Positions 14,212-39,481 of a stretch of DNA of 64,000 nucleotides are shown here, piece after piece. The stretch spans positions 310,001 through 374,000 of the forward strand of contig JASBNA010000032.1 of assembly GCA_038087015.1 (NCBI GenBank), read 5' to 3'. Position 1 is the first letter of the stretch. The number at the start of each line of letters is the position of its first letter. The DNA comes from Cerrena zonata. Its lineage: Eukaryota; Basidiomycota; Agaricomycetes; Polyporales; Cerrenaceae. The notes beneath the pieces are model-generated. The model did not search any database. It saw only the letters and a list, made by a program, of their open reading frames with translations, and was not told the DNA's origin. The position numbers and the translations under genes were made by a program.

Positions 14212-15776
14212 CTACATATTGGATGGGAATGTGAAGTTTAAGTTTAGGGGACTCGAATTTGCAGGGCTTACGCTCGAGGAAGCCATCCCATTGTTTAAGT
14301 ACTCAGGATCACGGATATTCAACATGAGTCGGGTTATGAGAGTATTGGCCAGCCTATGGTATCAGTCAGATGAGATCGTGTCACTAGGTGTAAGTACCAG
14401 TTCAGGGACTAACACGACGGTGATGATAGGCATCTGAAGTACGCCGCTTAAAACCTATGGGACAATTCATAAATGAGCAAATCACGAAAATAACAATGAA
14501 ATAAATGGCACACCAGACAGTTGACGAGTTCGATCGTGTACAATGTACAAAGAAACCTACCAACCAATTAGCGACTAGTCCAGGTTACGAAGCTTAGGGC
14601 TCAGCTTCATCTGAGGTTTACTACATACCCAAAGTACACGGTACCTAGATACAAGTCACGTATAAGCTTTCATGTTGTGGATTATTACCAGTACAGATAC
14701 TGACCGTCACGACATATCAAAGTGAAGAGACTATTTTGTACTGTCCGACCAATTTTCAACCGTTTGTATAGGGTCAATCCGAAGATGATGCAGTCGAATA
14801 TCATGCCTGGTGTCCAACCTATGGCATAATCTAGAGGATAAAATCATGAGTTGCGGTTGCGTTGTCGCTTTCAGGACTAACTGCCTTACGTTTCCCTCTG
14901 TAAGACGCCATTTTAATAAAGAATGACTCTTCGAAGGAGAAGATATATACTCACTGTTCCTTTGAGGTTGGTAGATCACACATCCTGATGTGGCCATTGG
15001 GAAGCCCGGATGTCAAACGACCCACGGAAACTTGCCACTAAATTGATCGAAACGGTCAGGATTTAGGTAACATATCCCCAATATTTGACCCACAAATGAA
15101 ATAACGAAGAAACATATGATGGAAAATATTAGAAAGAAGAGAAGTAATTTGTTCCGATTGTAAAGCGCATATGTTCGAATGGCCAATAGTACTGAGATAT
15201 AAATGTATCAGCTATCTGAGCCACAATTGAATGTTCTTAGTGCTTACCCGTTCCTATCGTAATGGAAATAGACACATAAATTTGACGAAAGAGCCCTAGA
15301 CCATAGCACCTGTTACAGAATAGTGAGCTTCCAGACTCGAATTGATTCTGTTGAATATAAACAAACATCTAAGGACATATACAATATGAGTCACATACGG
15401 CGGAGCAACGTAGTAACATACCTCGTCAGAAGGATTCTCGAAGAATTCAATTGCGATGGGAATGTATGCAATGAGAGCAATATATCTGTTGAGAAAGTAG
15501 AGGAACAAAGTCCAGGAGAACCGTTGGTCGAGCCAGAACAACTTATACTCCTGGACGACGGTAAGAATGTAGTCGTAATAGAGGAGGGCTGAGAATAGGT
15601 GAGCAATACAGAAGCAATTCTCGAGGTGTAGGAAGCTATCCACCGCCAGACGCCACAACACTGTACCGACTCAGCTCACGGGTATGCACACTGGGGAAAT
15701 ACTAATGTCAGCCACGGCTCAGCCAAAGAAAGGACGTAACTTACAGGAAGTTGTCATATGAATTAATGGGCGTCAT
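14212..15776 (-). CDS. DUF6533 multi-span membrane protein, paralog A
   Basis: Integral membrane protein of the agaricomycete DUF6533 family, function unknown. The start at 15776 reads MTPINSYDNFL; the second exon ends RELSRYSVVASG. The DUF6533 core follows: ALLYYDYILTVVQEYKLFW, then LFLYFLNRYIALIAYIPIA. Later exons give LLAIRTYALYNRNK, the soluble loop starting WQVSVGRLTSG, IGWTPGMIFDCIIFGLTLYK, LYTIELVNCL, and the closing TLITRLMLNIRDPEYLNNG with the stop at 14212-14214. The frame closes only with two micro-exons: AT at 15367-15368 (between 53- and 57-nt introns) and AGGGAAAC at 14890-14897 (between 57- and 59-nt introns). The gene is intact on this model. It is in tandem with paralog B upstream. 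Confidence 0.85.
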
Positions 15777-16377: not shown

Positions 16378-17889
16378 TCAAACTCGATCACCGACTGTAC
16401 TCGGGGAGGCACCGACACTTGAGAGGAACAGGATTCCGCCATTCTTGGGATCGCGGATGTTCAGCATCAATCGACTGATCAGAGTGGTAGACATCCTAGA
16501 GAGGTAATCAATTGTATGAAACGAAACTCCACGGAAATACTTGATGACTGACACGTTGGTAAGCGTAGCCATCTGGACTGTGTCGCCCCACATCTGAGAA
16601 AATAATGGGTGAGCGAGCACCGAAAGTATCATGATAGTGACACACCAAGAAGTCGGCGAGTTCGAGCGCGTAGAAAAGAGCAATTACACTTCCCGGTTGT
16701 TCAATAATTGATCATAAAGGTTGGAGTCTGTTTGCGCATACCTGAAGTACATGGTGCCTACATATATAGTGTAAGCGGAGACATAGGACATGAATAGGTG
16801 CTTACCGTCTCGAAGCATGAGTGAGAATATGCCATTCTCTACCGTTCGGCCATAGTTTAGACGTTTGCACAACGTCAACCCAAATATAATACAGTCAAAC
16901 ATCATTGGTATTGACCAGGCTATGGCGTAATCTAAGAGAGACCGTAAGTCTATGTTGTGAGTATTTGAGAGGAACGTATTGCACGTTTTGCCCTTAATTC
17001 AAAGTGTCTTGTTTTCAGAAGGCGGAGAAGGAAAAGCTATGAGTCCTGAACTCACTCCTCCACCGTAGAATATACGCCACATGTTTCGATACCCCCCAGA
17101 GTAACGGTAGGACTGAATGGGCTGGTGAGTATTTGCCACTTGGATTGGACGGTCAATGGCATGAATGTTTATATGTGAACGTCCTTCACTTACGCAGGCG
17201 ATAGAGAAACCACATATGAGGAAACAGACGAAGAAGAACCGGAGAGAACGGTTTTGATTATAGAGTGCATATGTTCGGATAGCTGATAAGACTGTAATGA
17301 GGTCAATTAAGCATTACAACAACAACCGGAGAGTGGCTTCAGAACTTACTTGCAACTAACAGGATAGAAATAGCGCAGTACAATTGATGGAAGAGTTTCG
17401 CGTTACGACATCTATTATATCGGAAAATTCATTATTTTGGGGTTATTTAAATAATGCAATTTCGAACAACGAACATCTGAGATAAACATGGTGAGATATG
17501 GTATTATGATAGGCAGCCAGAACATACCTGGATTGGAAGATCACAGAAGAATTCAATCACAATGAATACATGAGCAACGAGGGCCATGTATCTGTTGAGA
17601 AAATAGAGTAACGATATCCAGGAGAACTGGAAATTCTTCCAGAATAGATTATATTCGGAGTTGAAGGTGAGGATGTAATCATAGTAAAGAACAGCTAGAG
17701 TAACAGCGTTAGGAAAGGAAGATAGCACGAGCATTGACGTAGGCAGTTTGTTTACCTACTGATGCTGCAACACTGTAGCGAGTAAGCTCACGAGGGTACG
17801 CGCTGGAGAATATTACTGTTAGTCATAGCCATGCGAACCTGAAAAAAGGTGACAACTCACAACTGGTTATCAGAAGGTGCAGTGGTCAT
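16378..17889 (-). CDS. DUF6533 multi-span membrane protein, paralog B
   Basis: Second copy of the family. The start at 17889 reads MTTAPSDNQF, then AYPRELTRYSVAAS, and the DUF6533 core AVLYYDYILTFNSEYNLFW with LLYFLNRYMALVAHVFIV. Next come RNAKLFHQLYCAISILLVA, LSAIRTYALYNQNRSLRFF, a loop starting WQILTSPFSPTVTLGG, YAIAWSIPMMFDCIIFGLT, ALFYALELADFL, WGDTVQMATLTNV and TTLISRLMLNIRDPKNGG. The stop is at 16378-16380. As in paralog A, two micro-exons are required: AT at 17475-17476 (introns of 51 and 63 nt) and GGCAAAAC at 16985-16992 (introns of 63 and 53 nt). Skipping the 2-nt exon gives a stop after two codons. Orientation and order suggest that A and B arose by tandem duplication. Confidence 0.87.
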
Positions 17890-37987: not shown

Positions 37988-39481
37988 ATGATGCCCACCC
38001 CCCAAGGCATTCTTCTGTGAGTTTAATCAGTCTCAACGATTCAGATTCGATTGTGACTAAAGTCCATATACCTGTAGTGTATCTGCGACTGAGCAGAGTC
38101 GTCATAGTGTTTTGGCAGCAATAGGTGTGAATAATGAATTGGAGTTATTGTGTTTGTTCCTCACATGTCTTCATAGTCATCCTTCTCTACGACTTCATCC
38201 TCACCATCATACCGGAATATAAGCTATTCTGGCTAGACCGACGCTTGACATGGACGTCATTCTTATATTTTCTCAATAGATATCTTGCATTAATTGCATA
38301 TATCCCGATCGCATTTCTGTACTTCCGGGATTTACCGGACAATGTACGTGCTGTATTGACGTTTATCCAATCATTGCCTTACTCCGTATAAACTAGACGT
38401 TTGTTATTACAATTATATCCCACCATTCATGGCTGATATCGAAGTACCCATAGGTGTCATCGTATGCAATTATTCCATCGAATATATTGCACAACCTCAA
38501 CACTCTTGATAACAGGTGAGTTCGTTCGAATAAGTCTCGGACATTACTCCGTAACGGCTAATCGAAATCCTAGTATTACTCGCTATTCGAACGTACGCAC
38601 TCTATGATCGAAGCCGCACCCTTCTTGTCTTTTTCGTATTGTATATCTTAGGAGGGTTTTCCATGTCATATGTAAGTTCATGACGCTCACGTACTCATAT
38701 CGTATCTAACTATATTATCTAGTGGCTGGGCATCCCAGCTGAGGACCGGTTGTCATCTGGTCTGTTCAATGATAACATAAGGCCATGCAGCATTCTATCA
38801 ACAACGGAGCAGTGAGTGTTGTTGTTTTACTTTCCTCACTACTCAGACTGAGTGGTTTTGTTTGTTGGAGGGGGAAAAGTGGGTATTCTATTGAGAGACC
38901 TGATAATCAAAACTTACGGCATGATTTCTAGAGTATACCATTTCATGGCTCCCGACAATGCTATTTGATTGCATAATATTTGCGTTAACCTTGTACAAAC
39001 GCTTCAAAATTGGTCGCACAGTGCGAAACAGCCTCTTTTCTTTAATTTTACGAGACGGTCAGTATCGGTCCATCGACAACCTACTGCAAGTGATACTTAT
39101 ATCCTGCTTTTGATACCAGGTACCATGTATTTTGGGTATGTAGATACATCTTTCTGACCGTGACCTACAGTTAAATGCTATGACGTGTCACGAAGATTTC
39201 TGTGTATCCTATATACTCTCGAACTCGTAAACTATTTAGTCAGTTGATCAGACTTTCTATTATCTCACCTCCACTCATGCTTGACCCATCCAGGTTTGGG
39301 GTAACATCATTCAGATGGCTACTCTTACCAACGCGTCAGTACTTTCGCCTACGCCGAAGTACACACAATTTAATCACTACCACGATATTCTAGCATCGCA
39401 ACTTCTCTCATCAGCCGACTCATGTTGAATATTCGCGATCCTCGGAATGGTGGGATTCTTGCTCGATTAGAGCAAGCTTAG
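37988..39481 (+). CDS. DUF6533 multi-span membrane protein, paralog C
   Basis: Third copy, on the opposite strand about 20 kb from A and B. It starts MMPTPQGILL (ATG at 37988; 37991 also possible), then ATEQSRHSVLAAI and the core VILLYDFILTIIPEYKLFW with SFLYFLNRYLALIAYIPIA. Next are CHRMQLFHRIYCTTSTLLIT, LLAIRTYALYDRSRTLLVF, the loop starting WLGIPAEDRLSSGLF, YTISWLPTMLFDCIIFALT, CILYTLELVNYL, VWGNIIQMATLTNA and TSLISRLMLNIRDPRNGG, with TAG at 39479-39481. The same two micro-exons are required: AC at 38397-38398 (introns of 53 and 55 nt) and GGGGAAAA at 38871-38878 (introns of 59 and 53 nt). All other exons splice with canonical sites, so the gene appears intact. Function unknown. Confidence 0.86.

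Follow-up and report, generated by a model that had tools for sequence, protein, structure and literature searches.

A 1-nt exon has been described in the plant genes APC11 and VPS55 (PMC8831610), and for the Fusarium P450 gene CYP621A the available text of PMC12940212 documents a 1-nt exon with read evidence, which is a G in all 24 genes discussed; the same text cites exons of 2–5 bp for Arabidopsis, Drosophila, and human. Sequential removal of the introns with intron definition has been argued for the 1-nt exon, and the opposite order is quoted for the 9-nt exon of potato invertase (PMC4674806, in the portion available). The shortest exon given for the Phanerochaete P450s is 6 bp (PMC1184071) and the smallest given for bglA of basidiomycete yeasts is 5 bp (PMC9142197), and the stwintron cases described in the available parts of PMC5639578, PMC6616335, and PMC12403724 come from Ascomycota. 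The DUF6533 family (PF20151) includes snb1, which is required for fruiting-body patterning (PMC10949477), and micro-exons are not mentioned in those portions of the literature naming DUF6533 that were available. A first-pass annotation of a 64,000-nt stretch of the Cerrena zonata genome (contig JASBNA010000032.1, positions 310,001–374,000; hereafter the window) proposed that three DUF6533 paralogs share a 2-nt exon and took an exon of this size to lie at the known lower limit. Because 1-nt exons have been confirmed by RNA in Arabidopsis APC11 (PMC4674806, PMC8831610) and, according to the text available, in Fusarium CYP621A (PMC12940212), 2 nt is no longer that limit.

The three window paralogs, genes A, B, and C, belong to DUF6533 with scores above the curated Pfam cut-off of 24.1 bits (42.9 and 50.8 bits for the spliced proteins of A and B, and 44.7 bits for C as the translated genome match C32:348167). 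All three contain the predicted 2-nt micro-exon, with the coordinates, dinucleotides, and intron lengths exactly as the first-pass annotation had claimed (Table 1). In each gene a good first donor (GTATGT in A and B, GTACGT in C) closes the domain exon in phase 0, and the next helix exon begins N-TGY, so that two bases are missing between them; these are supplied by AG-AT-GT in A and B and by AG-AC-GT in C, with flanking introns of 51–63 nt. The second donors (GTTTGT in A and C, GTTCGT in B) are weak, scoring 0.1–0.7 on a hand-set scale. Both flanking introns are complete in their GT/AG ends and lengths in all three genes, and five of the six carry a branch-like CTNAN motif, the exception being intron 2 of gene B. 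The need of the reading frame for two bases is conserved among homologs, these being paralogs of one genome only.

Table 1. Positions in the window of the exons and introns around the predicted 2-nt exon, and of the 8-nt exon, in genes A, B, and C
Gene	Feature	Positions	Strand	Domain match
A	Exon 3, 167 nt, DUF6533 helices, phase-0 end before GTATGT	15422..15588	-	PF20151 match, spliced protein
A	Intron 1, 53 nt, GTATGT..TAG, branch-like CTCAT	15369..15421	-	
A	2-nt exon AT; with next G gives ATG, Met	15367..15368	-	
A	Intron 2, 57 nt, GTTTGT..CAG, branch-like CTCAC	15310..15366	-	
A	Exon 5, 62 nt, G TGC: Cys and next helix	15248..15309	-	
A	8-nt micro-exon AGGGAAAC, introns 57 and 59 nt	14890..14897	-	
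B	Exon 3, 167 nt, DUF6533	17528..17694	-	PF20151 match, spliced protein
B	Intron 1, 51 nt, GTATGT..CAG, branch-like CTCAC	17477..17527	-	
B	2-nt exon AT; with next A gives ATA, Ile	17475..17476	-	
B	Intron 2, 63 nt, GTTCGT..TAG, without CTNAN branch match	17412..17474	-	
B	Exon 5, 62 nt, A TGT	17350..17411	-	
B	8-nt micro-exon GGCAAAAC, introns 63 and 53 nt	16985..16992	-	
C	Exon 3, 167 nt, DUF6533	38177..38343	+	
C	Intron 1, 53 nt, GTACGT..TAG, branch-like CTTAC	38344..38396	+	
C	2-nt exon AC; with next G gives ACG, Thr	38397..38398	+	
C	Intron 2, 55 nt, GTTTGT..TAG, branch-like CTGAT	38399..38453	+	
C	Exon 5, 62 nt, G TGT	38454..38515	+	
C	8-nt micro-exon GGGGAAAA, introns 59 and 53 nt	38871..38878	+	

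The spliced models comprise 9, 12, and 10 exons in A, B, and C, respectively, and are open throughout the modelled part. Exon lengths of 47, 167, 2, 62, 98, 83, 8, and 126 nt are common to A and B, and gene C has exons of 47, 167, 2, 62, 98, 89, 8, and 126 nt, then 16 nt as in B. The three genes share a second micro-exon, of 8 nt and between introns of 53–63 nt, that the first-pass annotation omitted. The 16-nt exon common to B and C lies at 16742–16757 on the minus strand and 39120–39135 on the plus strand.

Skipping of the 2-nt exon has the consequences that had been predicted for it. Gene B stops after two codons (MS* in the spliced model) and loses its helix too, and the next helix is destroyed in A and C, where 73 and 31 wrong residues, respectively, run to a stop. 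The further claim, that no other split gives the needed length in B and C and only one, with a 27-nt intron, in A, stood for B, needs qualifying for C by a rival with a GC donor, and was incomplete for A. The sole other two-intron split in gene C combines this GC donor with a 22-nt intron, and with one intron the gene can be read in two ways, through a weak GTTTAT donor that gives an intron of 93 nt or at the cost of 25 nt of exon. Gene A has two further splits, each with a 27-nt intron, and retention of its 57-nt intron 2 stays in frame; retention of intron 2 in gene B is ruled out by the stops it encounters.

The alternative that survives best is that each gene has one longer intron, spliced through a different donor or acceptor, and that the AG-NN-GT string is an unused coincidence. 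Gene A leaves several such readings open, namely an 89-nt intron from a GTATGT donor 23 nt downstream, one of 53 nt whose GTTTAT donor is weak, and introns of 74 and 86 nt through other acceptors, whereas B has none and C only the two just described. The stretch from the domain to donor 1 measures 48 or 51 nt in the ten-row clade that holds A, B, and C, so seven residues added in A would be conspicuous, although the same stretch varies in the wider family. Gene A alone is ambiguous and gene B alone is nearly decisive, and therefore the decision rests on the paralogs; the three in the window would not by themselves prove a 2-nt exon.

A profile search of the translated 55.5-Mb genome gave at least 115 DUF6533 matches, and 109 of the 115 loci, genes A, B, and C included, were analyzed; the six left out are weak matches, every one with in-frame stops. 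The matches are unevenly placed in that 24 of the 115 lie on contig C10 at about 643000–1083500, and 11 of the C10 loci form a single cluster at 80% identity together with one gene on C3. Near-identical loci on separate contigs (L013/L014/L015, L017/L018, L090/L091, and L108/L109) are either recent duplicates or two haplotypes assembled apart. A scan of viral contigs with the domain exon of gene B found no relative.

At each locus we scored every intron pair after the domain exon that left −3 to 11 nt between the introns and was followed by an exon beginning N-TGY, with hand-set, untrained weights and with intron lengths near 53 nt favored; the cysteine rule had been adopted only after inspection of the first loci. 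The best model over the 109 loci was a 2-nt exon in 84, a 5-nt exon in two, and a [D1,2] stwintron in three, and 20 had no tandem model. A 2-nt exon fits two more loci on weaker evidence, which brings the total to about 86 of 109. Among the 20 loci without a tandem model, L072 can be fitted with a 2-nt exon behind a weak donor, and L103 shows the 2-nt signature by eye in a gene whose frame is broken. Fourteen of the 109 are without a convincing layout (L010, L021, L022, L024, L041, L042, L055, L061, L075, L076, L110, L112, L113, and L114). L114 was fitted only poorly by a 2-nt exon (score −1.1), the Cys codon of L024, L041, and L055 lies by eye within a continuous exon, and in L010 AG-GG-GT and the Cys exon are visible and the first donor could not be placed.

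Since the cysteine rule postdated the first look at the loci, the search was repeated without it and without any preference for exon length or frame, keeping the preference for intron length and the fixed stretch for the first donor. This search returned a model in 98 of the 109 loci, with a 2-nt exon in 83, TGY as the first full codon in 82, and both in 77. Ten dinucleotide shuffles per locus (n = 1090) gave a model in 448 cases, a 2-nt exon in 35, TGY in 25, and both in three, and the median score was 14.0 for the real loci versus −2.6 for the shuffles. With donor 1 and the Cys exon fixed independently of the micro-exon, 72 of the 109 loci were usable, and 65 of these contained AG-NN-GT with both introns at 45–70 nt; control lengths in the same frame of 5, 8, 11, and 14 nt were found in three, two, one, and one loci, respectively. 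The weights given to splice sites were hand-set throughout these searches. Dinucleotide shuffles set an expectation of about two against 60 observed among 64 non-redundant loci, which had been chosen for fitting the model.

The recurrence of AG-NN-GT in the independently anchored loci speaks against a single longer intron with an unused coincidence. With the score divided by the number of introns, a one-intron layout does rank first in gene A, L013–L015, L027, L080, and L102, as it does in L047, L067, and L086, but in gene A and the other loci of the former group it falls behind once all sites count in the ranking. We consider this alternative improbable for the family. Of the layouts compared, only the 2-nt exon accommodates A, B, and C together with most members examined, and these patterns support it; in our judgment the dinucleotide is highly probably a 2-nt coding exon, constitutive in DUF6533 genes and lying between two U2-type introns of about 50 nt each.

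The 84 loci modelled with a 2-nt exon fall into 64 clusters at 80% identity, in which intron 1 measures 47–66 nt (median 53) and intron 2 measures 47–76 nt (median 52). The exon fills positions 1 and 2 of the codon directly 5' of the conserved Cys, and its dinucleotide is AG in 28 clusters, GG in 14, AC in seven, AT in six, GT, GA, and CG in two each, and CA, GC, and TT in one each. The micro-exon is thus nearly any dinucleotide and not AY, and the signature AG-AY-GTTYGT that had been suggested as a search pattern is too narrow: AY accounts for 13 of 64, AG and GG prevail, and beyond the window genes the pattern matches few members. The last exon base before a donor is usually G, and a final G is present in 44 of the 64 micro-exons versus 19 of the 64 exons before intron 1. 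GC replaces GT at the second donor in three clusters (L046, L079, and L085). The residue before the Cys is Ser in 20 clusters, Gly in 14, Arg in 10, and Thr in seven, with seven others in the remaining 13. An alignment of 67 spliced proteins is free of gaps from two columns before the Cys, itself a condition of the model, to five columns after it; two 2-nt genes may share as little as 13% identity (pairwise median 29%), and the stretch just 5' of the junction varies in length between clades.

Other forms occur at the same site. L047, L067, and L086 are without intron 2 and have a single phase-0 intron, and the dinucleotide opens the next exon in frame (AG/AGC TGC, AG/GGC TGC, and AG/AGT TGC, respectively). 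They nest among micro-exon genes, which make up the rest of a 38-row clade (support 97/90), in a tree of 67 rows and few columns with 34 of 61 inner branches open, the bootstrap not settled, and the root not fixed. L044 and L095 have a 5-nt micro-exon (GTACA and GGATA) at the micro-exon site. L081, L092, and L102 have the layout of a [D1,2] stwintron, in which the exon ends ..AG/G and is followed by a full intron and then T..., so that removal of intron 1 joins G to T and creates the donor GTATTA, GTATGT, or GTATTT; after removal the exon ends in AG, in phase 2, before T- or C-TGY. Intron 1 lies 3 nt further downstream in these loci than in the micro-exon genes, a position that may have come about by sliding of one old intron or by a separate insertion. 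L107 shows the stwintron layout by eye, with a broken exon 3.

These four loci lend substance to a second alternative, in which the family uses a stwintron or a zero-length recursive-splicing site that keeps no base, as does the AGAG/GT context of the AG class, where an exon of zero length could be read (k=0 in 30 of 64). In A, B, and C, however, a [D1,2] stwintron does not fit, the frame requiring two letters, and zero-length recursive splicing shifts the frame if nothing is kept. A [D1,2] stwintron also requires T after the first AG, yet 63 of the 64 micro-exons begin with A, G, or C, and the paralogs without intron 2 retain two bases at this place. As an account of the junction in general we regard it as very improbable. 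Still less credible is a broken gene family or a misassembly with the frame problem as decay, for although L103 and L107 (the latter in the frame of exon 3), L061, and the six weak matches with stops look disrupted, A, B, and C have models without a stop over their 9, 12, and 10 exons, and one shared decay at the same codon, between good splice sites, in about 86 genes is unlikely.

Under the preferred reading, a constitutive 2-nt exon, the dinucleotide would be included in the mRNA, and each intron would be recognized across itself by intron definition, so that the size of the exon would be immaterial. Only two bases separate the intron 1 acceptor from the intron 2 donor, and two spliceosomes are unlikely to engage both simultaneously; the introns would therefore leave one after another. 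Intron 1 probably leaves first, an order that outside the stwintron loci is a guess; in L081, L092, and L102 a stwintron works only if intron 1 is out first. Its exit would make a normal exon ending ...NN/GT, which would serve donor 2. We also put forward, tentatively and as a possibility that we stop short of favoring, that the two DUF6533 introns form an ancient splicing unit, obligately sequential, that has drifted among the 2-nt exon, the 5-nt exon, and the [D1,2] stwintron through shifts of a few bases. If this is true, micro-exon and stwintron would be neighboring states of one tandem intron, with the whole series, losses of intron 2 included, in one genome.

A literature search, with subscription journals mostly outside its scope, gave no report among the matches listed of a 2-nt exon in the DUF6533 family or of a series from micro-exon to stwintron. 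The exon type is already known, and what we did not find in the literature searched is the DUF6533 member, the family-wide scale, and the alternation of micro-exon and stwintron. The ultra-small exon is, to judge from the genomic patterns, very likely real, and if it is confirmed by RNA the set of about 86 exons below 3 nt, in one genome and at one codon, would exceed any single-genome set in the available text of the literature compared. Natural variants are available in the dinucleotide, in both introns, in GC donors, in intron loss, and in the stwintron form. By this scale and these variants the DUF6533 intron pair is a good experimental system, and given RNA confirmation the handling by the spliceosome of an exon below its footprint would thus become directly testable. 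The results also suggest that automatic gene models in this basidiomycete family may often lose the frame at the micro-exon.

The known systems can be compared with the DUF6533 genes as far as the available text of their descriptions allows. The Phanerochaete P450s and bglA are likewise intron-dense, with introns mostly near 50–60 nt and very small exons, but these exons are larger, and family-wide conservation of one ultra-small exon is not reported in the portions available (PMC1184071, PMC9142197); GC-AG introns next to micro-exons occur in bglA (PMC9142197) as they do in L046, L079, and L085. With the [D1,2] stwintrons of Pezizomycotina the DUF6533 pair would share the sequential removal of two introns, and one DUF6533 clade has the [D1,2] form at nearly the same place, but the Pezizomycotina stwintrons have zero exon letters between the introns (PMC5639578, PMC6616335, PMC12403724), whereas A, B, and C have two. 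Plant APC11 and VPS55 resemble the DUF6533 genes in a conserved exon below 3 nt and in relatives that have lost introns and hold the base or bases in a larger exon, and for both the proposed route is removal of the introns in sequence under intron definition; they differ in being plant genes with a 1-nt exon confirmed by RNA-seq and RT-PCR, the DUF6533 exon being predicted (PMC4674806, PMC8831610). Fusarium CYP621A, with 1 nt, orthologs across species, and read evidence, differs from DUF6533, with 2 nt of varied sequence in about 86 paralogs of one genome, identified from sequence alone (PMC12940212). In both, the gene is a fungal nuclear one in which a clash of phase is fixed by an ultra-small exon, the exon falls in one codon of a conserved motif, and comparison of homologs gave the first sight of it (PMC12940212).
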